DNA from: Lachnospiraceae bacterium
Lineage (GTDB): Bacteria; Bacillota; Clostridia; Lachnospirales; Lachnospiraceae
Length of the DNA stretch: 64,000 bases
NCBI GenBank assembly: GCA_017434885.1
Contig: JAFSGE010000016.1
Span: 1 to 64,000 of the forward strand
Reading direction: 5' to 3'
Below, in pieces: positions 2,938 through 31,658 of this stretch (positions are counted from its first letter, which is position 1; every line of letters starts with the position of its first letter). The notes beneath the pieces are model-generated. The model did no database searches and was not told where the DNA came from. It was given only the letters and a program-made list of their open reading frames with translations. The position numbers and the translations under genes are program-made.

Positions 2938-2980
2938 AACAATCTCCTAACAATACAAGTATTTTCGCGATACCTGTCTG

Positions 2981-3979: not shown

Positions 3980-4064
3980 GATACTTACCTCGTCTGTAAA
4001 TAAGGAACTTATCTCACTTTTCCCGCCTCATAAATGTTCCATGGGAATTTCCTATGAATTGAAG

Positions 4065-4097
4065 AAAAGGTTGAGATGCAACACCTCAACCTTTTTT
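4065..4097 (-). terminator. Terminator after rpmE
   Basis: Arms GGTTGAG (4069-4075) and CTCAACC (4085-4091) are flanked by A-run and T-run on both sides. On the minus strand the hairpin ends in CTTTTC seven bases past the rpmE stop. It probably limits read-through from rpmE into the DUF1385 gene. Confidence 0.75.
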
Positions 4098-4104
4098 AAC
4101 ATAC

Positions 4105-4311
4105 TTATTTGCTTTCTACACCATACTTTCTGTTGAACTTATCAATACGTCCGTCAGTTCTTGCAGCCTTCTGCTGACCTGTGTAGAATGAATGGCACTT
4201 GGAACAAACTTCAACGTGGATATCCTGCTTGGTTGAACCTGTTACAAATGTGTTACCACAGTTGCATGTTACTGTTGCCTGATAGTAATTAGGATGGATT
4301 CCTTCTTTCAT
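4105..4311 (-). CDS. rpmE: 50S ribosomal protein L31 (zinc-binding form)
   Basis: 68-residue L31 of the C+ (zinc-containing) type. The four cysteines are present as CNCG and CSKC. The core [11 protein letters not shown] and FYTGQQKAA match the family. I start at the ATG at 4311 because AGAGAGGTG lies 6-8 bases upstream and the product then begins MKEGIHP, as usual; an in-frame GTG at 4318-4320 is part of that ribosome binding site. It is transcribed from its own promoter directly after rho and ends at a hairpin terminator. Confidence 0.96.
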
Positions 4312-4402
4312 CTCTTTCACCTCTCTATAAAAACTATGTTACTGTACTTGTTCTCATCCGCTGCACGTTATGTGCTACTATTTCAATTGAAACAGCTTTT
4401 TA

Positions 4403-10869: not shown

Positions 10870-10911
10870 TGCAAATCTCCTCCTTGTCTTCTTGTCCTGA
10901 TTCCTTGTTGT

Positions 10912-11676
10912 CTATGCCTGAAATTTCCCAATGAATTCCCTTACACGTTCATTTGATGAATTAAATATTTCTTCCGGTGTCCCTTCTGCCTGAATCACAC
11001 CCTGCTCCATAAAGATAATCCGGTCGGAAAGCTCCCTTGCAAACTGCATCTCATGGGTAACAATAATCATTGTCATATGTTCTTTTGCCAGTTCCTTAAT
11101 TACCTTTAAGACCTCACCGGTAAGCTCCGGATCAAGTGCAGATGTAGGCTCGTCAAAAAATAAAATTTTCGGTTGAAGCGCCAATGCTCTTGCTATGGAA
11201 ACTCTCTGCTGCTGTCCTCCCGAAAGCTGATAAGGATATGCATCTGCCTTGTCGGAAAGTCCAAGCTGTTCTAAAAGCTTCGTGGCACGTTCTACTGCTT
11301 CTGCCTTTGAAATTTTCTCTACAGTCATGGGTGCATCTATAATGTTTTTCATAACACTGTAGTGGGGAAACAAATTGAAATTCTGAAATACCAGTCCGTA
11401 ATGGCTGTGTATTTCACGCATCTTTGCTTTGGACGCATAAACACATTTTCCGTTTTCTTCCCATGCTGCCTGCTCGCCAAGATAAATCAGTTCCCCTTTA
11501 TCCATCTTTTCAAGCATCGTAGCACAACGGAGCAATGTGGACTTTCCGGAACCGGAAGGACCGATAATGGAAACAACTTCTCCTCTCTTTACCGAAAGAG
11601 AAATATCCTTGATGACCTCTTCGCCGTCAAAGCTTTTACTCATATGATTGATTGTAAGTAATACCCGTTCATCCAT
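10912..11676 (-). CDS. Polar amino-acid ABC transporter, ATP-binding protein
   Basis: 254-residue ATPase of the GlnQ/HisP type that powers amino-acid uptake. Walker [12 protein letters not shown] at about residue 39, the Q-loop [11 protein letters not shown], the signature LSGGQQQR near 147, Walker [13 protein letters not shown] near 170 and the switch His in VTHEM are all present. An insertion between Walker A and the Q-loop ([18 protein letters not shown]) is slightly longer than in E. coli GlnQ. It lies 46 bases after the permease gene and 42 before the PurF-like gene. Confidence 0.93.
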
Positions 11677-16813: not shown

Positions 16814-19800
16814 TCAAATAATACGGAATAATTTCTGCACGATAAACTCCTGTTCAAAATATTCATGCAAAAGCGATTCCATGGTATTGTCATCACGCAA
16901 CGTGCGTCCGATGGCAATATCATTAATCAGATTATATCTGCTCTCTTTTTGTTCCCTGTCCGTATCACTGCGGCTTAAGGTTCCGCTTTGGGTCAGGGAT
17001 TCTCTTCCTGCATTGTTCTCTGTGATATAGTACTGCAGTTTTTCTCCGAAGAAAAGAACAAACTGTTTTACGCAGATGCCGTAGAACATATTGGGCATCT
17101 CTTCCTGAATATACTCACCTTCACTGGAAATATCACGCTCCATAAAATAATGGATTACGGCACTTTGCCCCTCTTCCAGCTTGTACTGTATCATGGTTTT
17201 GTCTGCAAACCGTCTCATAAACGCAATATGCTCCGCATACTCCTTAAAATAGGGGAAGTACATATTCTTTGCCAAGAGCTCCCGCAGAAAAACAATCAGA
17301 TATTTGGAAACCGACTCATCAATCAGTTTCTTATTTTCGGCATAATACTTGGTATATGCAAGCTTGCATACAAGTGGTATTTCCTCTCCCTGCTCGGCAA
17401 CCCGTTGCAAATCCTGCATGATATATTCGTCTGTGACTTTTTCCCCTACAAAATAATCAAAACAGTTTTGGGCAAGAAAAGCCATCTCTACTTCTGTCTT
17501 TCCGCCACCGGATACATAGCACTTAAACACTTCCATCTTTTCGCCTATGTATCCTCCGGTATAGAGTAACTGTACCAGAATACGACTGCTGATTTCATAA
17601 GTATCCGCACCAAAAGAAACGGCTGCTTTCCAGATATTACGCATTTCTTTTAAGGTACCGCGATAATTTTTCAGCAGATAATTCAATATATTTTCATCAT
17701 ATTTTCCCGATTTGAATGCCGTAAACGACAGCTTCGTAAGCCGCTCCTCGCTGTAATCCGGATCAAGGGAAATCACTGCACTGCACAGACGAAGAAGCAT
17801 CTTAGGTTCAATTCCGCCTCCGCCGTGATTCCTAATCCATTCATATGCTTTTTCATACATTCCCCTGATGATAAAAAAGCGGACTGTCTGGGAGTAATCA
17901 GCACGGGAAACCTGCTCCACGGAAAGCTGCGCAAGAAATTCATCAAGTTCCTGTATCATGTCACTGTCATAATAATAATGAATCAGCTTCATACGGATTT
18001 CTTTTTGTAATTCCTCAATCAGGAAATCAGACTCGGCAATTTTGCGCATCCGGGCGGCATTCTCGTGACCGATAACCGCCAGTGCCTTTCCGCGCTCACA
18101 CAGCCAGAGCGTAAACTCAAAATCTTCAGTGATATAGGGTTCCGCCATAGCAGCCAGCTTATCGGGAATCATGATTCTTTCCAAACTGTAATCCTCTTCC
18201 CTGCAATAGCGGTTTCCGAAACTATCTTCCAGGATAATTCTTACATCGCTCCCGTAAATAGGCAGATACATTTCCCTTCCGGGTACAATCAGATATTTCT
18301 CATGCTTCTGCTTTTCATATATCAGAATCACCTTGCGGATATCGTCTCTTTTTACATACAGCCTGTGAATAAACAAGGCTGTGGAAAGACCTTTGGCGAT
18401 TTCTTCCGTCATCATGGCCTGCGTAACTGTATTTCTGTACAAAACTGCCAGCCATTTATTATTTCTTCCCTGCAATGCCTGAGACACCGTAAAACGCTCA
18501 ATCTGCGCACGGTAACTTTCGTACAGTTCCGGGAAATTCTCTCTGTTTTTGTACACATAAGCATATAAAAAGGCATTGTGAATGCTGTCAAGACTGCTGT
18601 CAAAGGCAAAATACATCAACACAATCTTGGGGATTTCCACATTCTCCGTCAGTTCACATGACATCATGTAATATTCATATAAACGGGTAATCCGCAACTT
18701 GCTTTCAATTCCCAGTGCATACCACTTAAAATGCTCTCTTCCCGTCAGATTTCCTTTAATCAGCAGGGTACAGATTACCTGCAGTGTCTCATCACCGGGA
18801 ATGATTTCATAGCATTTCTCTAACAGGGAAAACACACTGTCCGAATAGCCTTTTTGTCTGGCTGCCAGATACACGATCTGTTGGGCGATTACTGTAGTCA
18901 GCAAATCGTTTTTTGCAGCATAGGAAAGCACTTGCAATTCAAATGCCTCCAATCTCATAAGCAGAGTAGGATTCGCCAAAATCAAATGATATGCCTCTAT
19001 GTAAAGCACCGGACTGATACATCCCTGCTTAAACTGTTCCTCCAATGCCATCCATTTCCGGGACGGACTCTTTGTATATTCATCCGACAAATACAGTAAA
19101 AGCCATGCTATCCGCCAGTTATCGGTATTCTGGGCAAATATACGCTCTACCTGTGCCGTGGATTCTTCCACGTACTCTTCCTCTGTGTTAATCAGGGTAG
19201 TCAGGTACAAATAATAGCAATAGCTTGCCGCTTCAAAGTTATCTTCCATCAGAGCATCCACCTGTTTTAACAGCCAGCTTGCCTCGTTATACCGTTCCTG
19301 GGTAATCAGAAGCTGCGCTCTGAATAATTTAATGTTTAAGTCTTTATCATCCGTCTCCGCCAATTTATCCAGTATCTGCTCTGTCTCCTGCATCCACCGG
19401 GCCGCGCTGATTTTTTTGGTTCTGAATCCTTCATAATACTGCATCATTTCCATAATCAGATGCTTTTTGCGCATGCGTCTTCCGGGAATTCTCATTCTCA
19501 CAGGCTGACAGTATGCGTTTATCTTTATGGTCAGGGATGTATACGCATTGTAAAGTCTGATGGTTCCGAAGTTTTTGCCTCCATGCAGTTTTTCCTTTGC
19601 TATGTAAAAAGGCAATCGGTAACAGTTCCCCAAAAAGTCCTCATCTCTGATGACATCTTTTTCGATTACAAGAAACTCACAGTCTGTCTCCACCATCAGC
19701 TTTGAATAACCCCAACCGTTCCGGTTAATTACAATTTTGTATTCTACATTTTCCTTGGGGTCATTGATACGGATATCATCTTCCTCCAAAAGAAATTCCA

Positions 19801-20407
19801 CTTTTTGTTTCTTTTTAATTTCCAAAAGGAATTCTTCTACATTCTGCTGACATACCCTGCCACCGGAAAGCCCCCGGTAAACGGCATAATGCTGCCTGTC
19901 GGCGCCTTTAAAGACCTGAACAAATTCCTTGGAATAAAATAATTTTACTGCCTCTTCCCAGTTGGTTCTTGCCAGATTGGTAAAATGGAATAAATTTCTG
20001 ATATCTCCCAAACTGGAGGTCAGACTTCTCTCCTGTATGGTAACATCAAAAGGAATCACGTATTCCCCTCTGTTGGAAACAATACAAAATTCTCCTTTGA
20101 CATTTTCTCCTTCTTCCATGTCCGTTGCATCAAAGGAATAAACAATCTCTTCTTTGGAGCCGGAAAAATGCTTTGTCAGACATTGCATACGGAGTCTGCT
20201 TGAGGTCACACTGCCTTCCGTCACCAGATTCTCCGGTCCCATAACCGTAAAGCTGCCCTCATATACCTCGCCGGGGTACAACGATAACTCAATCCTCAGA
20301 CATGAAAAATCCAAGGAATGCATATTCTGATTAAATTCTCCTGCCAGGATTTTATCTACTGCGCTGTACACCTTCCGTACTCCTTTGACTTCTTTTGCAT
20401 CCGGCAT
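16814..20407 (-). CDS. DUF5717-like giant helical-repeat protein
   Basis: A 1197-residue protein resembling, from memory, the Lachnospiraceae DUF5717 family. The first 300 residues are beta-rich with Ig-like character (FTVMGPENLVTEG, SNRGEYVIPFDVTIQE, FGTIRLYNAYTSLTIKINAY). From about residue 310 on it is almost entirely helical and solenoid-like, with TPR-like pairs (LFRAQLLITQERYNEASWLLKQ). There is no signal peptide or membrane segment. Start is uncertain: ATG at 20407 is used, but a TTG at 20413 is in frame. It opens the cluster with the DUF5716-like, TPR and coiled-coil genes. Function is unknown; size and repeats suggest a scaffold for the Hsp70/actin-like partner. Confidence 0.78.
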   Translation of the reverse strand: MPDAKEVKGVRKVYSAVDKILAGEFNQNMHSLDFSCLRIELSLYPGEVYEGSFTVMGPENLVTEGSVTSSRLRMQCLTKHFSGSKEEIVYSFDATDMEEGENVKGEFCIVSNRGEYVIPFDVTIQERSLTSSLGDIRNLFHFTNLARTNWEEAVKLFYSKEFVQVFKGADRQHYAVYRGLSGGRVCQQNVEEFLLEIKKKQKVEFLLEEDDIRINDPKENVEYKIVINRNGWGYSKLMVETDCEFLVIEKDVIRDEDFLGNCYRLPFYIAKEKLHGGKNFGTIRLYNAYTSLTIKINAYCQPVRMRIPGRRMRKKHLIMEMMQYYEGFRTKKISAARWMQETEQILDKLAETDDKDLNIKLFRAQLLITQERYNEASWLLKQVDALMEDNFEAASYCYYLYLTTLINTEEEYVEESTAQVERIFAQNTDNWRIAWLLLYLSDEYTKSPSRKWMALEEQFKQGCISPVLYIEAYHLILANPTLLMRLEAFELQVLSYAAKNDLLTTVIAQQIVYLAARQKGYSDSVFSLLEKCYEIIPGDETLQVICTLLIKGNLTGREHFKWYALGIESKLRITRLYEYYMMSCELTENVEIPKIVLMYFAFDSSLDSIHNAFLYAYVYKNRENFPELYESYRAQIERFTVSQALQGRNNKWLAVLYRNTVTQAMMTEEIAKGLSTALFIHRLYVKRDDIRKVILIYEKQKHEKYLIVPGREMYLPIYGSDVRIILEDSFGNRYCREEDYSLERIMIPDKLAAMAEPYITEDFEFTLWLCERGKALAVIGHENAARMRKIAESDFLIEELQKEIRMKLIHYYYDSDMIQELDEFLAQLSVEQVSRADYSQTVRFFIIRGMYEKAYEWIRNHGGGGIEPKMLLRLCSAVISLDPDYSEERLTKLSFTAFKSGKYDENILNYLLKNYRGTLKEMRNIWKAAVSFGADTYEISSRILVQLLYTGGYIGEKMEVFKCYVSGGGKTEVEMAFLAQNCFDYFVGEKVTDEYIMQDLQRVAEQGEEIPLVCKLAYTKYYAENKKLIDESVSKYLIVFLRELLAKNMYFPYFKEYAEHIAFMRRFADKTMIQYKLEEGQSAVIHYFMERDISSEGEYIQEEMPNMFYGICVKQFVLFFGEKLQYYITENNAGRESLTQSGTLSRSDTDREQKESRYNLINDIAIGRTLRDDNTMESLLHEYFEQEFIVQKLFRII

Positions 20408-20432
20408 CAGCAAACGACACCATCACCAGTAT

Positions 20433-20512: not shown

Positions 20513-21094
20513 TTACGGTTCTGCAATCCGTGACACGCCCACATAAATATTGGAGATACTGTACCATGTGGGATAATCCACCACACCTGTCTTTGGCAGA
20601 TTGAAAATTCCCTGAAATGTTCTTACTGCCTCCTGCGTTCGCGGACCATATACTCCATCTACCGATATCGTGGGAATCGCCGGATAATTTCTGGCAATTC
20701 TGTTTAGCTGCTGCTGCAGCTGCCTTACCTTGTCGCCCGAAGCACCAATGTTCAAATCATACCCGGGCCAGGAAGACGGCACTCCGGAAATACTGTCCGC
20801 ACTGTTAATATACATATCATTTCCGTAATAATATCTGATAATTTCAATAGGTGTATAACCTTCACTTGCCAGATACTGTGACCCCCACTGGCTAAGACCG
20901 TCACAGGTAACACGCTGTCCGTCACAATATGAAGTAAAAATGGGCTGTCTCACTCCCGGTCTTGATAAATAGTTTGCAAAAATGGAATCCACAATACGCC
21001 CCACATTTGCATAAATATTTCGTCCGTATATCCACTTCTGGTCATATGCCGTGGAGGAAGTAATGGTAAAATTGTAGCCCTGATTCCGGTACAC
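20513..21094 (-). pseudogene. SpoIID-like/peptidoglycan-binding protein, C-terminal part (split gene)
   Basis: 193 codons that form the C-terminal part of a larger protein. It opens in mid-domain (YRNQGYNFTITSSTAYDQ), completes a SpoIID/LytB-type domain (SYCDGQRVTCDGLSQWGSQ, then EIIRYYYG) and ends with a PG_binding_1 domain (GDKVRQLQQQLNRIA, VDGVYGPRTQEAVRTFQ). Its missing front half is at 28718-29473, across the inserted element. The nominal GTG at 21092-21094 has no ribosome binding site and lies exactly at the element junction, so on its own it is probably not translated. SpoIID-type domains act on glycan strands during sporulation engulfment. Confidence 0.88.
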
Positions 21095-21123
21095 CGAAAC
21101 CGCTATTAATTTGATGTTATCTC
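21093..21123 (+). repeat. Left end of the element (att half-site arm)
   Basis: Read inward on the plus strand it begins ACCGAAACC and matches the right end in about 20 of 31 positions. The SpoIID-like C-terminal sequence begins immediately outside, with the shared core TAC-CG at the junction. Confidence 0.7.
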
Positions 21124-22764
21124 CGGATGACCCGGATTCACCCTGAATTTTATAGCTATTTGTTCCCCTGTTATCTCTATTCTCTCAACCACTGCCTTTA
21201 TTATCACTCTTTTGGTAGCATTGTCTGCCTTCATAAATACGTCACCCCAGGTAGACAGCTTCACATTTCGTCCCCTCCTTTGTCCATCAGGTCCAAACGG
21301 CTCCGACAATCTCTGCTCTGTTTCTCTGATAAGCTTCTTTTGTTCCTCTTCCACTTTTTCCTGCAGATGAATTGCATCCGCAATTTCTGCCACGCTGAAA
21401 GGATATTCCCCTGTCATGGCTTCCGCTATGTGACTTTGCAGTACATTCTTTCTTTGTCCGATTTTTTCCAGTTCTTTATAAAGCGCCCCGATATCTCTTT
21501 TCAGACTCTCCCGCTTCCTCTCATGATAACCTTTTACTTCACTTTCCATATCTTCTTTTTCCAAAAGCCAATTTAAAACCTTTGCCACATAAAAAAATAC
21601 AACCTTTTCCGTTTCCTCTGCCTGATACCGTTTTTTCCTCCCATGCAAATTAACTTCCATCGCTGTCTCGCAGCAATAGAACGGAACTTTCGACTTTCTC
21701 CTTTCGCCGGTTCTCTTTATGGTCCAGTAACTGTACCTTGTTCCGTTAACCAGTCTTTTCTTGCAGCATCCGCAGTAAATCACATCAAGCAAAGGCAGTA
21801 TACCGTCATTTCTCTTATTTACGGTAATCATTTTCTTATCATCCTCTGTTTTTTTATATTTATCTGCTCTGCCTTTTCTTTTTTCCTGTACTCGGTTCCA
21901 GATATTTTCATTAACAATCTGAATGCCTGCATCCGGCACTGCTGCCATTATCCATTCCCTGCTGTCTAATCTGCGATACTTTCCTCCTTTGCGTTCTCTT
22001 CTTTTGTAAGCAACATATCCTGCATATACGGGATTGGTCAAAATACTTGTAATCATTCCGCTTTTCCATATGCCGCCGGGCGATAACCGTCTGTATGCTT
22101 CATCTCTGTTTAAGGTATTTGCAATTTTCACCGAACCGAATTCCTTATTCAGGGATAGCCGGAAGATATATCTGACCACTTCTGCCTGTTCCTGTACAAT
22201 TACAAGCTTATGCAGTGCCCTCCCATGCTTGCTGATTTCACCTGACAGCTCCAGCCTGTATCCGTAAGGCGCCCTGCCACCCATAAACTTGCCCATTTGC
22301 ACCATTTTCTGTGCGGTGTCCTTTACCCGCATACCGGTATCGGCACTGCTTTTCTGTGCATTTCCGTACCGAAGGGCAAGCATCATCTGCCCCATAATAT
22401 CTTCTGCATCAGGAGAAATACACCCGTCTTTCACGGTATAAATATCCACGCCGAAGCTTTTTAAAGTCATCACATAGCTACCGATTTCCCACATCAGACG
22501 TCCCACACGATCATCCTTATACACCACCAGAATATCATATTCTTTTCGTTCGGCATCCTGTAAAGCCTCCTGCAAAACATCTCTGCTTACAACAGATTTC
22601 TTATATCCGCTGTTACTCCCTTCAAAATATTCTTTATCGTCCAAAATCCAGTCACTTTGGCTTTTTATGTATTCTTTCACAATCTGTCTTTGCACTGATA
22701 AATCTCCGTCTGCCTCAAGCTGCTGGTTTGAACTGACCCTGAGCAACATTCTGACCCGCTTCAT
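21106..22764 (-). CDS. Large serine recombinase
   Basis: 552-residue site-specific integrase of the resolvase/invertase superfamily. The N-terminal catalytic domain carries LLRVSSNQQ (nucleophile Ser at residue 11 or 12) and VVYKDDRVGRL. A Recombinase domain follows (GGRAPYGYRLE near residue 160, SILTNPVYAGYVAYKRRE near 240), then a zinc ribbon (YCGCCKKRL and YCCE, about 325-375) and a helical coiled-coil arm (about 400-480), the layout of phage-type large serine integrases. Start at 22764 is chosen because ATGA overlaps the stop of the preceding small gene and GGAGAGG lies 7 bases upstream; the ATG 18 bases earlier lacks a site. It ends at the element boundary, the usual position next to the attachment site. 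Confidence 0.93.
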   Translation of the reverse strand: MKRVRMLLRVSSNQQLEADGDLSVQRQIVKEYIKSQSDWILDDKEYFEGSNSGYKKSVVSRDVLQEALQDAERKEYDILVVYKDDRVGRLMWEIGSYVMTLKSFGVDIYTVKDGCISPDAEDIMGQMMLALRYGNAQKSSADTGMRVKDTAQKMVQMGKFMGGRAPYGYRLELSGEISKHGRALHKLVIVQEQAEVVRYIFRLSLNKEFGSVKIANTLNRDEAYRRLSPGGIWKSGMITSILTNPVYAGYVAYKRRERKGGKYRRLDSREWIMAAVPDAGIQIVNENIWNRVQEKRKGRADKYKKTEDDKKMITVNKRNDGILPLLDVIYCGCCKKRLVNGTRYSYWTIKRTGERRKSKVPFYCCETAMEVNLHGRKKRYQAEETEKVVFFYVAKVLNWLLEKEDMESEVKGYHERKRESLKRDIGALYKELEKIGQRKNVLQSHIAEAMTGEYPFSVAEIADAIHLQEKVEEEQKKLIRETEQRLSEPFGPDGQRRGRNVKLSTWGDVFMKADNATKRVIIKAVVERIEITGEQIAIKFRVNPGHPEITSN

Positions 22765-22946
22765 ACCTCTTCCTCTCCCCATCTTTGAATATCAGTCTTT
22801 TCCAGTTGCTCCTGCAAAGCACCGATAAGCATATCTTTTATTTCCCATCCTGCAGTATCTTCTTTCCCCGGTTTCTCAGGAAACTCTAACACAATCCTGT
22901 AACCCTCCCGTATTTCTTCTTTTTTGCAATAAGCTGTATTTGGCAT
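22761..22946 (-). CDS. Small acidic protein coupled to the recombinase (61 aa)
   Basis: No recognised family. It is rich in Glu and Lys with a central EIKDMLIGALQEQLEKTD helix. Its start has GGGAGCAGGTA upstream, and its stop overlaps the recombinase start as ATGA, so the two are translationally coupled. Small proteins next to serine integrases often control direction of recombination; this is a candidate directionality factor by position only. It could equally be a small accessory or DNA-binding protein. Confidence 0.65.
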   Translation of the reverse strand: MPNTAYCKKEEIREGYRIVLEFPEKPGKEDTAGWEIKDMLIGALQEQLEKTDIQRWGEEEV

Positions 22947-22987
22947 TACCTGCTCCCGCTTTTTTTATCATCATATCAAAAACAGGC

Positions 22988-23016
22988 TTGTCACATTCAT
23001 CCAAGCAACAAAGAAT
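22988..23016 (+). promoter_or_regulatory. Possible tdk promoter
   Basis: TTGTCA (22988-22993), 17 bases, AAGAAT (23011-23016) on the plus strand, in the 146-base gap between the divergent recombinase operon and tdk. A TTGTAC at 23016-23021 with TAAAGT 18 bases on is an alternative. Confidence 0.35.
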
Positions 23017-23092
23017 TGTACAAACCTGACAGGATATGGTAAAGTATTGTTAACGGCCACGGGGTCGTAAATGATAACAAACGGAGAAAATT

Positions 23093-23659
23093 ATGGCAAA
23101 ATTATATTTTAAATACGGCGTCATGGGCTCCTCCAAATCAGCACAAGCCCTGATTACCAAATTTAATTACGAAGAAATGGGGATGTCTGTATGGCTGATC
23201 AAGCCCAGTGTAGATACCAGAGACGGGGCCGGTACCATCAAAAGCCGCATCGGCATTGTTCAGCAGGCGCAAGTGATTACTCCCGACCAGTGCATTATTG
23301 AAGAATATGAGAAAGCCGGCACTCATAACGTCATTATTGCCGACGAATCCCAATTTTTTACCCCTAAACAGATTGATGAACTCCGCACTTTGGTAGACGA
23401 AAAAAATCTTCCTGTACTTTGCTTCGGACTTCGCACCGATTTCAGCACCCGTTTTTTCCCCGGTTCCATGCGCCTGATGGAACTTGCGGATTCCATTACG
23501 GAAATCAAAATGGTATGTGCCTGCGGCCGGAAAGCTACCGTCAATGCCCGTATTGATGAAAACGGCAATATTATCACTCAGGGCGAACAAGTCTTTCTGG
23601 GCGGCAACGATAAATACATGGCCATGTGCCATAAATGCTGGAAAAACAAACAAAAATAA
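23093..23659 (+). CDS. tdk: Thymidine kinase
   Basis: Phosphorylates thymidine to dTMP in pyrimidine salvage. 188 residues, the normal size for the bacterial type II enzyme. The P-loop reads GVMGSSKSAQAL (residues 9-20), differing from the classical GxMxSGKST but still with Lys-Ser. The catalytic Glu85 lies in DESQFF, and the zinc site uses Cys142, Cys144, Cys179 and Cys182. The ATG follows GGAGAAAATT. It is the only plus-strand gene in the window, lies inside the recombinase element, and converges on the nucleoside importer, a sensible functional partner. Confidence 0.93.
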   Translation: MAKLYFKYGVMGSSKSAQALITKFNYEEMGMSVWLIKPSVDTRDGAGTIKSRIGIVQQAQVITPDQCIIEEYEKAGTHNVIIADESQFFTPKQIDELRTLVDEKNLPVLCFGLRTDFSTRFFPGSMRLMELADSITEIKMVCACGRKATVNARIDENGNIITQGEQVFLGGNDKYMAMCHKCWKNKQK

Positions 23660-23671
23660 AACACCAAAGAC

Positions 23672-23711
23672 AACGGCGGCAATGAGTCATAAAAGACTTC
23701 TTGCCGCCGTT
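23672..23711. terminator. Bidirectional terminator between tdk and the importer
   Basis: Arms AACGGCGGCAA (23672-23682) and TTGCCGCCGTT (23701-23711) with an inner GAGTC/GACT pair. It sits between the convergent tdk and permease stops and is the most stable hairpin in this region. Confidence 0.88.
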
Positions 23712-23731
23712 TGCGTACACTATCAATTTTT

Positions 23732-24673
23732 CTATCTGCTGCCTTTATCGTAAGGAATACCTTCACTCTTCGGTGCTCTTGACTTACCTGACGTAAATGC
23801 CAGTACCACCAAAGAAATAATATAAGGTAACATATTATAAACACCACTGGGTATCTTCAAATTCACCAGGAAATCAAATCCAAAGTACACATTGGAAAGT
23901 GCTCTGAACAAACCGAACAACAACGCTGCAAGTGCAATTCTGGTAGGCTTCCACTGTCCGAAAATCATAACAGCAAGTGCAAGGAAACCAAAACCGGCAA
24001 CTCCGTATTCAAACTTCCACTCACTGACACCTGCGGTAATGTATACAATACCGCCAAGACCGCCAAGCACACCGGAAATCAGCACCCCCGCCCAGCGCAT
24101 CTTATATACGTTAATACCTGCGGAATCCGCCGCCTGTGGATGCTCACCGCAGGCCATTAATCTTAGTCCGAATCTTGTCTTGTAAAGGGTAATATAAGAG
24201 GCAATCAGTGCAATCACCGTAAATACCATAAACCAGTTAAATTCAAAACCACCGATATTTACAATGAAGGCTGCCTTTTCCTCTACATACTGCACAGTAG
24301 ATGACACATCATCCGGGTTTGCTGCAGTATTTAACGCTTTCACAATAACAGTTGCCGCTGCAGTACCAAGCATATTCATAGCCGTTCCCACAATGGTCTG
24401 GTCTGCCTTAAAATGAATTGCCGCAACAGCAAGTAACACGGAATACAGCAAACCTGATAATGTACTTGCAAGCACTACCAGAAGAATAATTGCAACTGCC
24501 GATGTTCCTGACGGCAAATATCTCATCATCAACGCTCCGCCAAGCGCTCCGATAACCATGATACCTTCAAGACCTAAATTAATTACACCGGAATGCTCTG
24601 CAAAACATCCGCCGAGAGCCACCAGAATCAGAATAGAGGCAAATAAAAGTGTATATTGAATCAATAACAACAT
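23732..24673 (-). CDS. Nucleoside-type ABC transporter permease (NupQ-like)
   Basis: 313-residue inner-membrane permease of the branched-chain/nucleoside class, with about 8-9 hydrophobic helices. Typical features are GVINLGLEGIMVIGALGG near residue 29, GLRLMACGEHPQAADSAGINVYKMR near 175 and GGIVYITAG near 220. It overlaps the stop of the other permease by one base (TAATG), so the two are translationally coupled and probably form a heterodimer. It is the last gene of the importer. Confidence 0.9.
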   Translation of the reverse strand: MLLLIQYTLLFASILILVALGGCFAEHSGVINLGLEGIMVIGALGGALMMRYLPSGTSAVAIILLVVLASTLSGLLYSVLLAVAAIHFKADQTIVGTAMNMLGTAAATVIVKALNTAANPDDVSSTVQYVEEKAAFIVNIGGFEFNWFMVFTVIALIASYITLYKTRFGLRLMACGEHPQAADSAGINVYKMRWAGVLISGVLGGLGGIVYITAGVSEWKFEYGVAGFGFLALAVMIFGQWKPTRIALAALLFGLFRALSNVYFGFDFLVNLKIPSGVYNMLPYIISLVVLAFTSGKSRAPKSEGIPYDKGSR

Positions 24674-25821
24674 TATTCTTTACCTCCTTTCTTATTTTCT
24701 GCTGCCGCTTCTTTTCCCATCTCTTTTGCAGCCGCTTTGGCTTCACTCTTTTCAATACGGGAGTTCATGGCATATTTAAAGAAGCCTACAAAGCCGCACA
24801 GATATACGATAATCGCCGAAATCAAATCGGAAATCTGGGAACAATACATGGTCTTGTCCACATAAGCTCCGCCTGCAGTAATATGCTGAATAAAGAACGA
24901 GGAAAAAATCGTTCCGATAGGGTTTAAACCACCGAGGAAGGCTGCTGCAATTCCGTTAAAGCCCATTGCCGGAAGAGACGAATGCGTACACTGCCACTGT
25001 TCATATCCCGTCTGATACAATAAAGAACCGCCAAGTCCCGCAAGTGCACCACCGATTACCAGCGTCAGAATAATATTTCTCTTTTCTGCCATTCCGCTGT
25101 ATTTTGCAGCATTCTTGTTAAAGCCGGTCGCTTTCAGTTCATAACCGAATTTCGTCTTGGCAAGTATCGCCCATATCAGTACTGCCATCAGTACGGATAA
25201 GGGGAGAGCCAGTCCAACATACTGGTTTTTATTAAACAAAGCCCCCAGTCCCAATGTGGGAAGAAGTGCCTGTTCACCGGCTGCGGTAAGCTGATACGTA
25301 TAAGGACTCGCCGCTTCTTTTACATTACTCAGAATCATGTTGGTAGAGTATAAGCCAATCCAGTTTAACATAATACCCGAAATTACTTCATTTACATTAA
25401 AATAAGATTTAAGAATACCTGAAATCGCTCCGAATACAGCTCCTGCCAAAACAGCAAGAAGCATACAGGGAAGCCAGCTCCATTTCCATGCAAGTGCCGC
25501 ATACAGGCAGGCACATGCTCCTACCACGTATTGCCCTGCCGCACCGATATTAAACAAACCTACTTTGTAAGAAAACAATACCGACAGTGCACACATCAGA
25601 AGAGGCGCTGTTTTTACCAACGTATTCCCCAAATATTTCAATTGCATATTCGCACTGTTATAAGTCAAAAAGTTCTTTGCCACACTGATAATCGCTTCCG
25701 CCGCACCGGCAGGATTGATAAACAGTAGTACAATAAATCCGATAATCATACCCAGCACAATACAAATCAAAGAAGTCAGTATGGACTGCACTATGCTGTT
25801 TTTTAAGAAATTCTTTTTCAT
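24673..25821 (-). CDS. Nucleoside-type ABC transporter permease (NupP-like)
   Basis: 382-residue permease, longer than its partner, with about ten hydrophobic helices, the motif GLFNIGAAGQYVVGA near residue 90 and GYELKATGFNKNAAKYSGM near 225. The C-terminal tail (EAKAAAKEMGKEAAAENKKGG) is charged and Ala-rich. Its start overlaps the ATPase stop as ATGA, and it is followed by the second permease with one base of overlap. Confidence 0.9.
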   Translation of the reverse strand: MKKNFLKNSIVQSILTSLICIVLGMIIGFIVLLFINPAGAAEAIISVAKNFLTYNSANMQLKYLGNTLVKTAPLLMCALSVLFSYKVGLFNIGAAGQYVVGACACLYAALAWKWSWLPCMLLAVLAGAVFGAISGILKSYFNVNEVISGIMLNWIGLYSTNMILSNVKEAASPYTYQLTAAGEQALLPTLGLGALFNKNQYVGLALPLSVLMAVLIWAILAKTKFGYELKATGFNKNAAKYSGMAEKRNIILTLVIGGALAGLGGSLLYQTGYEQWQCTHSSLPAMGFNGIAAAFLGGLNPIGTIFSSFFIQHITAGGAYVDKTMYCSQISDLISAIIVYLCGFVGFFKYAMNSRIEKSEAKAAAKEMGKEAAAENKKGGKE

Positions 25822-27356
25822 GCTTCCACCTTATCTTTCTTTGCACCTGCCATGTAAAGGCCAAGTTCTTCCTGAGTTACATTCTTAGGGTCAAATTCCC
25901 CTACAATCTCTCCCTGATGCATAACAAGGATTCGATCCGGTACATCCATTACTTCATCAAGTTCTAAGGAAACCAAAAGAACTGCCTTGCCTGCATCTCT
26001 CTGTGCAACAAGCTGTTTGTGAATATATTCTATAGCGCCTACATCAAGACCTCTGGTAGGCTGAACTGCAATTAACAGCTCAGGATTTTTGTCAATTTCC
26101 CTTGCTATAATCGCCTTCTGCTGATTACCGCCGGACATACTTCTGGCAGTCGTAGCCGCACCTTGTCCCGAACGGACATCATACTGCTCAATCAATCTTT
26201 CGGCATATTTACGGATATTTGCTTTATTCATAATACCAAATTTGCCTGAAAATTCCGGTTCATAGTAACGTTTCAGTATCATGTTATCCTCAAGAGAATA
26301 ATCCAATACCAGTCCGTGCTTATGACGGTCTTCGGGGATATGGCTGATGCCCATATCATTCCGCTTACGGATACTTAAATTTGTAATATCCTGACCAAGC
26401 AGTTCTATCCGGCCTCCTGCAGCCGCTTCCAGTCCGGTAAGTGCATACACAAGCTCTGTCTGTCCGTTTCCGTCAATTCCCGCAACACAGACAATTTCTC
26501 CCTCACGAACTTTGAAAGAAACATTCTTTACCGCATCATTCTTATGCAGATTGGATGCAACCGTAAGATTCTGAACATCCAGTACAACTTTGCCCGGTTT
26601 TGCTTCCTCTTTGTGTACGTGGAAATTCACATTACGCCCTACCATCATGGCAGAGAGCTCCTCCGCACTGGTATCTGCAATATTTACCGTACCGATATAT
26701 TTTCCTTTACGCAAAACACTGCAACGGTCTGCCACAGACATAATCTCACCCAACTTATGGGAAATGAAAAGAATACTCTTTCCTTCTGCCGCAAGATTTT
26801 TCATAATCTGCATCAGTTCCGTAATTTCCTGCGGAGTCAGCACTGCTGTTGGTTCATCAAATATCAAAATTTCATTATCACGATAGAGCATCTTCAAAAT
26901 TTCCGTACGTTGCTGCATACCTACTGTAATGTCTTCTATCAGCGCATCGGGATTTATGTGAAGCCCGTACTTTTCCGAAAGCTCTGTTACTTTCTTTCTT
27001 GCTTCCGCCTTGTTGAGAAAACCGAGTTTATTGGGTTCCACACCCAAAATTATATTATCTAATACAGAGAAACACTCTACCAGTTTAAAATGCTGATGCA
27101 CCATGCCGATTCCCAAATCGTTGGCATCATTGGGATTTTCAATTTTCACGTCTTTTCCGTCTTTTCTGATTTTGCCCTCTTCCGGCTGGTAAAGACCGAA
27201 TAAAACGCTCATCAATGTGGATTTTCCGGCTCCGTTTTCGCCCAGAAGCGCATGAATTTCACCCTTCTTAAGCTGAATGGTAATATTATCGTTTGCAACG
27301 ATGCCCGGAAATCTCTTTGTAATATTTAGCATTTCTATTGCATATGGCTGTTCCAA
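25818..27356 (-). CDS. Nucleoside-type ABC transporter, double ATPase (NupO-like)
   Basis: 512-residue protein with two fused nucleotide-binding domains, as in RbsA and NupO. First domain: Walker A GENGAGKSTL near residue 40 and Walker B ILIFDEPTAVL near 160. Second domain: degenerate P-loop GIDGNGQTELV near 290, the signature MSGGNQQK near 405 and AVQPTRGLD near 430. One competent and one degenerate site is normal for this class. It follows the binding-protein gene after a hairpin terminator, so it may be expressed at a lower level. Confidence 0.92.
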   Translation of the reverse strand: MEQPYAIEMLNITKRFPGIVANDNITIQLKKGEIHALLGENGAGKSTLMSVLFGLYQPEEGKIRKDGKDVKIENPNDANDLGIGMVHQHFKLVECFSVLDNIILGVEPNKLGFLNKAEARKKVTELSEKYGLHINPDALIEDITVGMQQRTEILKMLYRDNEILIFDEPTAVLTPQEITELMQIMKNLAAEGKSILFISHKLGEIMSVADRCSVLRKGKYIGTVNIADTSAEELSAMMVGRNVNFHVHKEEAKPGKVVLDVQNLTVASNLHKNDAVKNVSFKVREGEIVCVAGIDGNGQTELVYALTGLEAAAGGRIELLGQDITNLSIRKRNDMGISHIPEDRHKHGLVLDYSLEDNMILKRYYEPEFSGKFGIMNKANIRKYAERLIEQYDVRSGQGAATTARSMSGGNQQKAIIAREIDKNPELLIAVQPTRGLDVGAIEYIHKQLVAQRDAGKAVLLVSLELDEVMDVPDRILVMHQGEIVGEFDPKNVTQEELGLYMAGAKKDKVEA

Positions 27357-27450
27357 AATATTCCCTCTCTTTCAGCAACATTTCTTCCTATAAAGGAACA
27401 AATTCATTATACTATAGCTTTACCCATTCTTCAAATAAAAACGTATATGC

Positions 27451-27489
27451 AAAAACAGGCAGACAGCCGAAGCTGCCCGCCTGTTTTTT
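27451..27489 (-). terminator. Terminator/attenuator after the BMP lipoprotein gene
   Basis: ACAGGC...GCCTGT outer arms with an inner AGC-CGAA-GCT stem (27455-27484) and T-rich tails on both sides. It lies in the 154-base gap between the lipoprotein gene and the ATPase gene and probably reduces transcription of the rest of the importer. Confidence 0.8.
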
Positions 27490-27510
27490 AGCTATTCATC
27501 AAACCGAAAA

Positions 27511-28686
27511 TTATTTCAGGTTTCCTAACCATTCCACTGTACAGTTAGTTGTTGCAGGTTCTGCGCTGATATCGTTAGATACAGTGATGGTTCCTGCATA
27601 CATATCTGCAACCATCTGCTTGTAGTCATCCTGGCTAAAGCCGTCAGCCCACTGTGTGGATTCCATAGGAATCTGAACATAGTTTGCTTCCGGATTGTCA
27701 CCGGAGATTAAACCGAGAGTTGTAATCTTGCCTGCATAATCAGCCCACTTGTCATTTACAATCACATCTTCAAGTGCATCGTAAGTTGCAGGATAAAGAC
27801 CCTTCATAGCAGAAGTTACTGTCATATTTTCACCGTAAGCACCGTCAATGATAGCTGCCTGGTCAACGTCAACACCGATTACCTTGCCGCCAACCTTCTG
27901 AGCTGCTTCTGCTGCAGATGTATAGATACCGCCGCCACATGCAAATACGATTTCCGTACCTGCTGCACACCATGTATCTACTGCTGCTGTGATATCAGCA
28001 TCTCCGTAGAACTGGTTGCCGTAAGCATACTTCATTTCTGTTGTAATTCCAAGCTCTGCGGACGCAGCGTCTGCTCCCTGTACGAAACCGTAACCGTATC
28101 TCATAACTGCGGGAACTGCCATACCACCAAGGAATCCGAGCTTTGTATAACCAAGCTTAACTGCTGCATATCCTGCCATGTAACCGCAAAGTTCTTCCTG
28201 GAAGATTGCGCAGTATACATTGTCAGAATTGTAGTAATCTGTTACATTCCAGTTATCAGGATTGTAATCGTATGTTTCACCCTTTGCTGCAACACCGGCT
28301 TCCAAAATGTCGCCTGCTGCCACGTCAAGTGCGATAAACTTTACATCAGGATAGTTGCCTGCTGCTTCTACGATTGTTCCTCCGAATGCATATCCGGGCA
28401 TAACAATTACGTTGTAGCCTTCATCAACAGCCTTGTCCACCATAGCTACACGGTCTGCTGTGTTGTCGCCTGCGGGCTTATAGTATGTGAACTCAATACC
28501 CTGAGATTCACAGAATGCCTTACAAGCTTCATAGGTTGTCTGATTGAAGGACTGGTCTGTAATATCACCGTAGTCTGTAATCATAGCAACCTTGTAACCT
28601 GCTTCTCCTTCAGAAGCAGAGCCTCCGCATGCGCAAAGAGAAAGTACCATGCACATAGCGAGAATGAGGGATAATACCTTTTTCAT
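27511..28686 (-). CDS. BMP-family nucleoside-binding lipoprotein
   Basis: 391-residue extracellular binding protein of the BMP/PnrA family, which binds purine or pyrimidine nucleosides. The lipoprotein signal ends in the lipobox LCAC (Cys20). Family features: VAMITDYGDITDQSFNQTTYEA near residue 34, FIALDV near 120, LGFLGGMAVPAV near 183 and the VIGVDVDQA segment near 270. It is the first gene of the importer; promoter and ribosome binding site (AGGAGGAAAAGAA) are clear. Near tdk, thymidine or mixed nucleosides are plausible ligands. Confidence 0.93.
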   Translation of the reverse strand: MKKVLSLILAMCMVLSLCACGGSASEGEAGYKVAMITDYGDITDQSFNQTTYEACKAFCESQGIEFTYYKPAGDNTADRVAMVDKAVDEGYNVIVMPGYAFGGTIVEAAGNYPDVKFIALDVAAGDILEAGVAAKGETYDYNPDNWNVTDYYNSDNVYCAIFQEELCGYMAGYAAVKLGYTKLGFLGGMAVPAVMRYGYGFVQGADAASAELGITTEMKYAYGNQFYGDADITAAVDTWCAAGTEIVFACGGGIYTSAAEAAQKVGGKVIGVDVDQAAIIDGAYGENMTVTSAMKGLYPATYDALEDVIVNDKWADYAGKITTLGLISGDNPEANYVQIPMESTQWADGFSQDDYKQMVADMYAGTITVSNDISAEPATTNCTVEWLGNLK

Positions 28687-28720
28687 TTCTTTTCCTCCTA
28701 TTGGTATAATAATGAAATCA

Positions 28721-28749
28721 ATTATAGCAACTTTTATTTTTCAAATCAA
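28721..28749 (-). promoter_or_regulatory. Importer promoter inside the right element end
   Basis: TTGATT (28744-28749), 17 bases, perfect TATAAT (28721-28726) on the minus strand. It lies wholly inside the element, overlapping the last codons of the truncated SpoIID-like frame, so the cargo brings its own promoter. Confidence 0.8.
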
Positions 28750-28757
28750 GAAGTTTT

Positions 28758-28788
28758 AACCAAACCACGAATTTCAAGTGGTTTCGGT
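28758..28788 (-). repeat. Right end of the element (att half-site arm)
   Basis: Read inward on the minus strand it begins ACCGAAACC, as the left end does on the plus strand. Later matches include CT, AATT and GTT. Facing arms like these are expected for the P and P' arms of a serine-integrase attachment site. Confidence 0.7.
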
Positions 28789-29480
28789 ACCACTCCGTAT
28801 ATACCCTGTTCAGTGTAAATGACATGATGGCAAGGGTATTTGCATAAATGGCATTTTCTTCCCATGTAGCATAAATCTCAGAGGAAACGACATTTTTGAT
28901 ATAATCTCGGTACCTTACATAATAGTTTTGTGCTGACGAATCCTGAGGCGCACCGTCATGAACCACCACAAACTCCGGTATCACTACCCTGCTAAGGACA
29001 ATTTCTCCGCTTTCATCCATAGGTTTAATCTCCTCCTCCGGAATCTTGGGCGGATAATTCCCATAAAGCGTGTGATCCGGTATCACTACAAGTTCCTGCG
29101 TCTGGTTCGTTTCAGCCAAAGGCCTCATTGAAATAGGCTGCAAGGCCGTTACATCCGGTAAAATCTCCGTTCCCGAAACATTCACAGTTTCATATCCCGG
29201 TGCCTCTACCTGAATGTTATACTCTGAATAAGGCATCTGCTCTGTGGGTTCTACGCTGTACTCAATAGGCGGTGCCGGCAACTCAATTGCCTCTGTCTGT
29301 CCGGAAGAATCGGTGATAATCCTTTCAATGGTAACGTCAGGTACTCCTGTATACGATATGGTGACAGTAGCATCCTGTATGGGAATCAAACCAAGTGTCG
29401 ATGTAACATTAATCTGCAATCTGCCAAGCTGTGTGTTATCCGTCTGCATCATGCGCAAACTGTTTTTGGGCATAAAAATA

Positions 29481-29516
29481 CCTCTGCATATAGATTTATT
29501 TTATCATATGCAGAGG
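29481..29516 (-). terminator. htpG terminator that also buries a ribosome binding site
   Basis: Perfect 11-bp stem CCTCTGCATAT (29481-29491) with ATATGCAGAGG (29506-29516), followed on the minus strand by TATTTTTATG. It is 35 bases past the htpG stop. The AGAGG that serves the SpoIID-like start lies in its 3' arm, so read-through mRNA would not be translated. Confidence 0.8.
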
Positions 29517-29528
29517 TTTTACTTTGGT
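29502..29528 (-). promoter_or_regulatory. Possible sigma-K promoter of the split SpoIID-like gene
   Basis: On the minus strand AC (29527-29528), 16 bases, then CATATGATA (29502-29510), matching the mother-cell sigma-K pattern AC-N16-CATAnnnTA. A start a few bases on falls in the hairpin loop, giving a transcript without the 5' arm and with a free ribosome binding site. The motif is short and AT-rich, so a chance match is possible. Confidence 0.4.
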
Positions 29529-29551: not shown

Positions 29552-31606
29552 TTATTTAGTAAGAAGCATCATAATATCATTACTTCTTGCCACAAACTTG
29601 CTCATTGACTCAGGATCGAGAGGCGCATGCTGCAGAAGTGCAAGATCATAAAGTTGCTCACAAATCATGCCTACATTTTCGCTCTCGGTATTGTCCATAA
29701 TGTACTGCACCAAAGGATGATTTGCATTGAGAATCAGGGTTTCGCCTTCCTTGCCGAAATCTCCCATATCCATGCCCGGCATAGAATACATCTTCATCAT
29801 ATCCTGCATTCTTCTGCTCTCTTCGGATAAGGTAATCATGGACGAAATCTTCTTATTTTTGAGTTTTTCCACTTTCACTGCAATCTTATCCTTCTTAAGT
29901 ACCTTCTGCATTACCTTGCCGATATTTTCTGCTGCTTCTTCCATTTCCTTTTCTGCCTTCTTGGAAGTCTTTGCCTTGAAAGTATCGGTTAAGTCTGCAT
30001 CAATTCTCTGGAACTTAATGCCTTCATTCTTTGCCTCAAGCTGAGAAACAAAAGGCTGGTCAATATTGTGTGTCAAAATCACCGCATCCATCTTAGCAGC
30101 TTTAAACATATTGATATACTGGCTCTGCTGCTTTTCATCGGTTACGTAGTAAATTACTTTTTCTTTCTTTTCTTCTTCCTCATCTTCGGAAATCACATTG
30201 CCGTCCGCATCTACCACTTCTGCATCAACGGTATCGTTTTCCTGTGCTTCTTCCCCTTCCGTCTCATCAGGGTCTATCTTATTCACTTCCAGACATTCAG
30301 GCAATGTAAGATATTTGCCGTCAAGATTCTTGAACAGAATATAATCTGTCATCTTTTCACAGAACTTATCATCCTTCAGGCAACCGAATTTGATAAACGG
30401 GCTGATGTCATCCCAGTATTTGTCGTATTCTTCCTTTTCAGTCTTACACATGCCTGCCAGCTTGTCTGCCACTTTCTTGGAGATATAATCAGAAATCTTC
30501 TTTACAAAACCGTCATTCTGAAGAGCACTTCTGGATACGTTAAGAGGCAGGTCGGGACAATCGATTACCCCCTTAAGGAGCATCAAAAACTCAGGAATAA
30601 CTTCTTTGATGTTATCTGCGATAAACACCTGATTGTTGTAAAGTTTAATCACTCCTTCAATGGACTCATACTCCATGTTAATCTTGGGGAAATACAAAAT
30701 ACCTTTTAAATTGAACGGATAATCCATATTCAGATGAATCCAGAATAAAGGCTCTTTGTAATCCTGGAATACCTTACGGTAAAATTCCAGATATTCTTCT
30801 CTGCTGCACTCATTGGGATGCTTTGCCCAAAGAGGCATTGTCTCATTCAAGAGCTCAGGACGCTTTACAATCTTGTATTTTAACTCATCCTCTTCCTTCT
30901 CGGGTTTGATTTCTTCCACTACCACGTCCGTATCTAACTTCTCGTCAGCCTTGATGGTCTGGGTATCTGTAGTATTTTCCTTGGAAAGATAAACCTCGGT
31001 AGGCATAAAGGAACAGTATTTCTTAATTACCTCTCTTGCCTTATATTCATTGCAGAACTCAAGAACATCATCATTTAAAAACAGAGTAATGGTTGTACCT
31101 ACTTCCTCCCTTGTTCCGTCACTCATATCAAACTCTGTGCCGCCGTCACATTCCCAATGTACTGCCGTAGCACCATCCTGCCATGAAAGGGTATCGATAT
31201 GCACCTCATCCGCTACCATGAATGCAGAATAGAATCCGAGACCGAAATGACCGATAATCTGGTCTTCATTGGTTTTGTCTTTGTATTTTTCGATAAAATC
31301 GGTTGCACCGGAAAAAGCAATCTGATTAATGTACTCTTCCACTTCGTCTGCTGTCATACCAACACCGTTGTCAATAAATTTCAGTGTCTTTTCTTCTGGG
31401 TTGACAAGCACCTGAATCTTTGCCTTATAGCCTTCCGGAAGACTGTACTCACCCATCATGTCCAGTTTCTTTAACTTGGTAATGGCATCACAACCGTTGG
31501 AGATTAATTCTCTGTAAAAAATGTCATGGTCGGAATACAACCACTTTTTAATAATCGGAAAAATGTTTTCGCTGTTAATTGATAAACTGCCGTGCTTTGC
31601 TGCCAC
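29552..31606 (-). CDS. htpG: Molecular chaperone HtpG (Hsp90)
   Basis: 684-residue cytosolic Hsp90. N-terminal GHKL ATPase motifs are clear: RELISNGCDAI (with Cys instead of the usual Ala after NG), DNGVGMT near residue 79 and IGHFGLGFYSAFMV near 115. The middle domain (KGVIDCPDLPLNVSRSALQ) and C-terminal dimerisation domain are present. An acidic insertion (EGEEAQENDTVDAEVVDADG, then EDEEEEKKE) near 450-490 lengthens it. The start is the GTG at 31606, 8 bases after AAGGAG; the GTG at 31615 overlaps that site. It is regulated by its own promoter with a CIRCE element upstream. Confidence 0.96.
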   Translation of the reverse strand: MAAKHGSLSINSENIFPIIKKWLYSDHDIFYRELISNGCDAITKLKKLDMMGEYSLPEGYKAKIQVLVNPEEKTLKFIDNGVGMTADEVEEYINQIAFSGATDFIEKYKDKTNEDQIIGHFGLGFYSAFMVADEVHIDTLSWQDGATAVHWECDGGTEFDMSDGTREEVGTTITLFLNDDVLEFCNEYKAREVIKKYCSFMPTEVYLSKENTTDTQTIKADEKLDTDVVVEEIKPEKEEDELKYKIVKRPELLNETMPLWAKHPNECSREEYLEFYRKVFQDYKEPLFWIHLNMDYPFNLKGILYFPKINMEYESIEGVIKLYNNQVFIADNIKEVIPEFLMLLKGVIDCPDLPLNVSRSALQNDGFVKKISDYISKKVADKLAGMCKTEKEEYDKYWDDISPFIKFGCLKDDKFCEKMTDYILFKNLDGKYLTLPECLEVNKIDPDETEGEEAQENDTVDAEVVDADGNVISEDEEEEKKEKVIYYVTDEKQQSQYINMFKAAKMDAVILTHNIDQPFVSQLEAKNEGIKFQRIDADLTDTFKAKTSKKAEKEMEEAAENIGKVMQKVLKKDKIAVKVEKLKNKKISSMITLSEESRRMQDMMKMYSMPGMDMGDFGKEGETLILNANHPLVQYIMDNTESENVGMICEQLYDLALLQHAPLDPESMSKFVARSNDIMMLLTK

Positions 31607-31658
31607 GATAATCACTCCTTTTTGTAAAAATCATTTTGAATCAATTTCACTAAAACTA

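Follow-up and report, generated by a model that had tools for sequence, protein, structure and literature searches.

We examined a 64,000-nucleotide stretch of Lachnospiraceae DNA (NCBI GenBank assembly GCA_017434885.1, contig JAFSGE010000016.1, positions 1 to 64,000; hereafter the window) in which a 7,698-bp insert carrying a large serine recombinase divides sleC, the gene for a spore cortex-lytic enzyme. We consider it likely that this insert is a sleC-intervening element of the skin/SPbeta/gin kind, whose excision in the mother cell would provide spores with SleC. The features that carry this reading can be taken directly from the DNA: an in-frame join, a dyad of attachment sites, unbroken relatives, recurrence of the break, SleC identity, a promoter match and selection on both pieces.

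The insert and its target gene

The original prediction placed a serine-recombinase element at 21093-28788 and held that its removal would join two half-genes into one frame. Both half frames lie on the minus strand, the front one at 28718-29473 and the back one at 20513-21094; joined in silico at GAG TG[GT], they form an uninterrupted 420-residue frame with no stop. The proposed limits are correct to within a few bases, with the GT cores located by codon alignment at 28789..28790 (5'-piece junction) and 21091..21092 (3'-piece junction), both on the minus strand. The host-coded part of the 5' piece spans 28790..29473 (its open frame continues to 28718 within the element), and the 3' piece, with its PG_binding_1 domain, spans 20513..21092 according to its open frame, the joined frame, and domain and PDB matches. 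The recombinase gene, said to end 5 bases inside the junction, in fact ends 14 bp inside the core, its stop codon ending at 21106. Site-specific insertion by a serine recombinase, with removal restoring the frame, is thus borne out, and would presumably be reversible in living cells.

Compared with PDB chains, the joined protein matched 9h68_A ('Spore cortex-lytic enzyme pre-pro-form') over residues 14-418 (E = 1e-128), and we therefore assign the gene as sleC; by full-length similarity, its product is a SleC-type spore cortex-lytic enzyme. The SpoIID and peptidoglycan-binding domains named at the outset are present, but they do not make up the whole protein, which is a SleC homologue over nearly its entire length. 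The split point falls within the SpoIID domain, and the two pieces are the only SleC homologues seen in the window's genome.

The element arms that flank the cores resemble the two halves of an attachment (att) site. In the window, the putative attP arms beside the 5' piece (28767..28788, minus strand) and beside the 3' piece (21093..21114, minus strand, overlapping the end of the recombinase gene) pair at 16 of 22 positions. Across 48 loci the arms form inverted repeats in which a mean of 12.8 of 22 positions pair (range 6-18), compared with 5.7 for shuffled arms and 5.1 for host arms. The arm distant from the recombinase gene is non-coding for the recombinase, so its upkeep speaks for retained recombination. 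The core bases are GT in all 67 attL and all 76 attR rows – though this is partly forced by the codons TGG TAY, and the core position in these rows was set by codon alignment.

The recombinase itself (558 amino acids, 21106..22782, minus strand) is, by its PF00239 and PF07508 domains and a match to the phrog_95 integrase family (E = 2.9e-71), a large serine recombinase of the phage integrase type. Pfam gave no match to the zinc-ribbon PF13408 in the window protein, and cysteines 337, 340 and 371 are invariant in the family alignment. It matches 135 phage records, all below 60% identity, with ten listed at 21-26%. Searching viral contigs with the window recombinase alone found none, and searching with the family alignment found 7 loci.

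Recurrence of the split and the sleC promoter

The gene at 29552-31615 (minus strand), which by its sequence we take to be htpG, flanks the 5' piece, and a 1199-amino-acid gene at 16814-20413 (minus strand) flanks the 3' piece. We surveyed the state of sleC in 36 genomes of the genus, the window's own included (genomes are numbered G, loci L). Full-length sleC, the intact homologue of about 420 residues expected of relatives, occurs with an unbroken site in 23 of the 36, and sleC is broken at this same codon boundary in 11. The broken gene has both pieces on one contig in G000, G001, G007, G014, G024, G025 and G033, and on two contigs in G018. G022 and G012 have the 3' piece with a recombinase, G012 also having a 5' piece elsewhere that ends near residue 171. 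In G003 two contigs end at the core, the assembly holds no recombinase of this element family, and assignment to this break is unsure. Breaks at other positions occur in G021 (near residue 303) and G029 (near 160-172), and G002, G025 and G030 have a sleC paralogue interrupted at the corresponding position. Among 13 intact genus loci that we read, htpG and the 1199-amino-acid gene flank sleC in the same order in nine; two have both neighbours close by but rearranged, and two reach the contig edge after htpG.

We scanned named genomes with an alignment of 11 recombinases and kept the best 80 of 132 relatives. All 11 seeds came from sleC or paralogue loci, so the set leans to that clade; no sleC sequence was used. 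The recombinase 3' end lies less than 200 bp from the core of a sleC (or paralogue) piece in 69 of the 80 loci: 40 adjoin the 3' piece on the same strand and 29 adjoin the 5' piece on the opposite strand, with zero strand exceptions. In 10 of the remaining 11 the recombinase is further off, and at L176, a short contig, no piece was found. In 37 of the 80 the locus carries both sleC pieces on a single strand, and the insert measures 2.0-15.5 kb over the 48 loci with both pieces, a set in which one record is counted twice (L041, L165) and one viral contig is included. A break at one boundary in 11 of 36 genomes and in most of 80 recombinase-reached loci is more than chance. By title, most of the records belong to genera of Lachnospiraceae, and some bear the labels Eubacterium, Ruminococcus, Clostridium, Bacillus or Bacteroidales. 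Among 12 named records searched for SleC, seven have pieces only (G061, G062, G064, G065, G066, G069 and G070, with G064 also showing weak matches in a longer protein), G063 has an intact SleC (63% identity), and G067, G068, G071 and G072 have a longer paralogue (41-44%). Cultured organisms with pieces as the sole SleC matches in their records include Hespellia stercorisuis DSM 15480, Eubacterium sp. 14-2 and Lachnospiraceae bacterium A2.

Upstream of the 5' piece we identified a putative sigma-K-type promoter (29502..29528, minus strand), with a -10 element CATATGATA at 29510-29502, a -35 AC at 29528-29527 and a spacer of 16; the box overlaps an inverted repeat that is possibly the htpG terminator. 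The pattern AC-N15-17-CATANNNTA occurs in 45 of 77 sleC upstream regions, where 0.75 would be expected. It is present in 23 of the 24 regions from the genus (0.13 expected), which are non-independent through homology, and in 22 of 53 others (0.60 expected), the expectations coming from first-order resampling of the sequence. The 77 regions are those with a readable ATG and at least 100 bp upstream, and the genus locus L049 was counted among the others. In Clostridioides difficile, sleC is reported to be a sigma-K gene (PMC3789822). As for sporulation capacity, SpoIVA is present in 37 of 37 genus genomes and SpoIIID in 33, the latter not being found in G012, G016, G033 and G035.

Selection, proposed excision and the alternatives

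The insert could instead be an ordinary mobile element or degraded prophage that uses a conserved stretch of sleC as its attB, the gene being dead and germination left to SleB/CwlJ-type enzymes. We judge this improbable, although such hydrolases (PF07486) are present in 37 of 37 genus genomes, the recombinase family includes a member on a phage contig (L197), and recombinase distances correlate weakly with host-gene distances (Mantel r 0.15 and 0.27, n = 60 each), pointing to elements that move or swap. The ratio of nonsynonymous to synonymous substitution (dN/dS) drifts toward 1 in a dead gene, whereas both pieces are strongly constrained in pairs of split genomes that share an element: 0.021 (5') and 0.009 (3') for G024-G033, at dS of 0.88 and 0.79, and 0.045 (5') and 0.024 (3') for G007-G018, at dS of 0.65 and 0.76. 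The intact pair G017-G011 gave 0.042 (5') and 0.017 (3'), htpG 0.02-0.03 and the recombinases 0.13-0.14; other genome pairs are near synonymous saturation and little informative. Judged by these ratios, both sleC pieces are under purifying selection while split, and because the members of each pair share the insert, the split presumably predates their divergence. The dead-gene explanation also fits poorly with element arms that remain paired and with a window element that has no phage genes.

We favor programmed excision of a sleC-intervening element, which could proceed as follows. A large serine recombinase would once have integrated DNA at the GT core within the Trp-Tyr codons of sleC. In growing cells sleC would stay split, the insert being inherited with the chromosome. 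During sporulation the recombinase, probably with a small protein encoded upstream acting as directionality factor, would excise the insert in the mother cell, so that sleC would be rejoined about when its sigma-K promoter fires and SleC packed into the spore. The forespore genome would retain the insert.

The small protein (61 amino acids, 22761..22946, minus strand) overlaps the start of the recombinase gene and is a candidate recombination directionality factor (RDF) of the element; its place and size resemble those of CD1234, SprB and GirX. Using a profile hidden Markov model built from 33 motif-selected small open reading frames (ORFs), we detected a member in 83 of 93 regions upstream of the recombinase (a few records being present twice), always on the recombinase strand; 50 were non-seeds, and 10 regions had none. 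The family has no match in NCBIfam or PHROGs, nor, for two members, in Pfam, and its profile gave just two unrelated matches among PDB sequences (E about 1). A fold of two strands and a helix was predicted, with modest confidence, for the window protein from 52 relatives (mean predicted local distance difference test score 73, predicted template modelling score 0.34). Upstream of the operon, at 22986..22998 (minus strand), lies a GAATGTGACAAGC box, a pattern picked after looking. The patterns GAATA-N14-18-CATA and GAAT-N1-3-RACAA[GT]C, both likewise picked after looking, are enriched upstream of the recombinase operon, in 16 of 80 (1.7 expected) and 13 of 80 (0.2 expected) regions.

Excision, its restriction to the mother cell and the role of the small protein are inferred, and several observations weigh against programmed excision. 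The region upstream of the small ORF shows no enrichment of plain sigma-K or sigma-E -10 patterns: as a promoter of the recombinase operon, CATANNNTA occurs in 9 of 75 regions (5.6 expected) and CATACANT in 2 of 75 (1.0 expected). SpoIIID was not found in the carrier G033, and YabG (PF05582), searched as a sigma-K marker, was found in 0 of 37 genus genomes. Because all 37 encode SleB/CwlJ-type hydrolases, SleC may be dispensable. Some att dyads are weak, with pairing down to 6 of 22, and the window recombinase sits on a long branch (0.65, against a median end branch of 0.15), which may reflect weaker constraint. In G025, an assembly with a listed contamination of 8%, the main sleC element lacks a recombinase in cis; the genome's closest one is found in a 2-kb element within the sleC paralogue (L035, L036) and might act in trans.

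Within the window element we found the recombinase, the small ORF, and thymidine kinase and transporter genes only, and no phage genes. The minus-strand order is htpG, the sleC front, an ABC operon, (tdk on the plus strand), the 61-amino-acid ORF, the recombinase, the sleC back and the 1199-amino-acid gene. By frame and domain matches, the cargo comprises a thymidine kinase (23093..23659, plus strand) and, on the minus strand, two ABC permeases (BPD_transp_2; 23732..24673 and 24673..25821), an ABC ATPase with two ABC domains (25818..27356) and a Bmp/PnrA-type nucleoside-binding lipoprotein (27511..28686), together a nucleoside-type ABC transporter. The sleC elements of G024 and G033 hold the same thymidine kinase and transporter cluster, although their recombinases are only 33-36% identical to that of the window; in G026 the cluster is at a different place, without a recombinase. 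The same cargo with divergent recombinases, or with none elsewhere, indicates that inserts swapped recombinases and took up ordinary genes. Between the window (23093-28686) and G026 (L102), cargo dS is 0.50-1.27, lower than the values for sleC and htpG, which run from 2.1 to saturation; this hints at interspecies transfer or codon bias.

The recombinase changes sides 10 times on the recombinase tree, at least 8 of these supported by starred branches. A simple vertical history is unsupported, given the low Mantel correlations, yet close pairs retain the same element. The sleC insert at L191 carries two recombinases (2751-4385 and 10001-11629), one per clade, plus DUF5722, and inserts of this type could explain recombinase swapping.

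All 37 genus genomes carry a close relative of DUF5722 (as pieces in G035). It adjoins sleC in G023 and G011, both intact, and in G021. In 7 of the 37 the close copy sits inside an element – the sleC insert in G001, G007, G014, G018 and G025, and the paralogue's element in G002 and G030 – so germ-line loss of the insert would lose DUF5722. Loss of the circle would cost a growing lineage its cargo genes and would cost nothing in the doomed mother cell. This bears on the idea of a reversible switch in growing cells, whereby some vegetative cells excise the insert and germination types are mixed. Serine-recombinase excision can leak (for yin, the excised form is reported from every time point in its host; PMC10747680), and the core is where two G003 contigs end, which mixed states could produce. 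Under a switch, however, the cargo would go with the circle, yet DUF5722 is kept throughout the genus; and G003 has no recombinase of this element family, so its contig ends may have another cause. We consider such a switch very unlikely.

We give hardly any credence to the idea that the pieces are separate genes whose products cooperate as a split enzyme: both are conserved, and 51 of 72 3' pieces have an in-frame ATG, GTG or TTG within 30 codons upstream, but the break lies inside the SpoIID domain, an in-frame ATG occurs within that distance in just 21 of 72, at varying distances, the first listed start at L033 and L035 is deep within the 3' piece, and in 31 of 65 5' halves examined a stop directly follows the Trp codon. 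The refuting case named in the original prediction, both parts kept as separate genes, is not borne out by these start and stop counts.

Further breaks, wider meaning and known systems

We observed further breaks in sleC. Nine of the 80 loci (L130, L135, L144, L148, L153, L157, L159, L174 and L178) have a 3' piece with another break, at about residue 290-302, and a second break near residue 290-303 is also found at L214 and L215, L212 and L213, L038 and L042. In some genomes it coexists with the first, leaving sleC in three pieces; three genomes were examined closely. In Eubacterium plexicaudatum ASF492 (G071, one 6.35-Mb contig; L210, L211) the pieces lie at 5978878, 5982204 and 6048462, with 66 kb separating the last two of the three. 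Another break, near residue 160-172 (L061 and L062 in G029, L049 in G012, L060 in G030), adjoins a different, 462-amino-acid serine recombinase (L062, L049) or phage-like genes.

Another mother-cell gene, spoIIID, is in two pieces in G013 and G034 (L201, 2608-2727 and 6808-6951; L202, 10779-10907 and 1791-1934), where a serine recombinase of another family (552 and 511 amino acids) ends at the 3' piece. Partial matches suggest that spoIIID is likewise split in G032, G060, G004 and G026.

In the 17.6 kb read from a 145,752-bp IMG/VR contig (L197), tail genes accompany a recombinase of the sleC-element family, and just downstream of the recombinase an inverted repeat around GT resembles an unoccupied attP. 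By analogy, the small inserts may derive from temperate phages that integrated in sleC; a phage origin of comparable inserts has been proposed for SPbeta relatives (PMC4191935). More broadly, and tentatively enough that we lean slightly against it, sleC could be a programmed multi-piece gene throughout Lachnospiraceae. Its DNA would be spliced in the mother cell, and as many as two independent inserts would both have to leave before a spore could receive SleC. The inserts would be ex-phage chromosomal lockers of normal genes, which would make germ-line excision costly and so fix the system.

Sporulation and germination govern the passage of gut commensals from host to host. Should DNA excision rebuild sleC, many Lachnospiraceae assemblies would wrongly appear unable to make SleC, the annotation calling the gene broken, and a mechanism known for a handful of genes in Bacillus and Clostridium would extend to a large commensal group. 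The loci also provide a large natural set of trios – recombinase, att site and candidate RDF – with one common target.

Elements of this kind are already known: skin, SPbeta in spsM, gin in gerE and yin in yabG, which we compare here. The skin elements in sigK (B. subtilis; C. difficile skinCd) are likewise serine-recombinase inserts in a mother-cell sporulation gene, and skinCd is excised in the mother cell by the recombinase CD1231 with the small RDF CD1234 (PMC5025042). Here, in contrast, the target is sleC rather than a sigma factor, the window element lacks phage genes, and the small protein matches no family searched. SPbeta in B. subtilis spsM is excised in the mother cell by SprA and the 58-amino-acid SprB (PMC4191935), and among PDB sequences our recombinase family matches SprA (YokA) best (E = 7e-15); SPbeta is a full prophage and the recombinases are only distant relatives, whereas this element is 7.7 kb with ordinary metabolic genes. 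The B. cereus gin element in gerE, with the recombinase GirC and the 42-amino-acid GirX (PMC5595907), is similar in that it interrupts a mother-cell gene and is described as free of phage genes; it differs in its 28.6 kb, three recombinases and target, where ours has one recombinase, sleC as target and cargo that is chromosomal in relatives. The C. botulinum yin element, which interrupts the sporulation gene yabG and carries a serine recombinase and a putative 72-amino-acid RDF (PMC10747680), is prophage-like and has another target, a gene that this genus appears to lack (0 of 37). Phage-related genes, present in skin and SPbeta and absent from gin and the window element, are hence non-defining. 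Among the matches listed in openly licensed literature, by titles and abstract starts, we found no report of a sleC- or SpoIID-intervening element or of a spoIIID insert. Relative to these known systems and to the same listed matches, what is apparently new is the sleC target, the breadth, the candidate RDF family, a cargo of ordinary chromosomal genes, and genomes whose sleC lies in three pieces.

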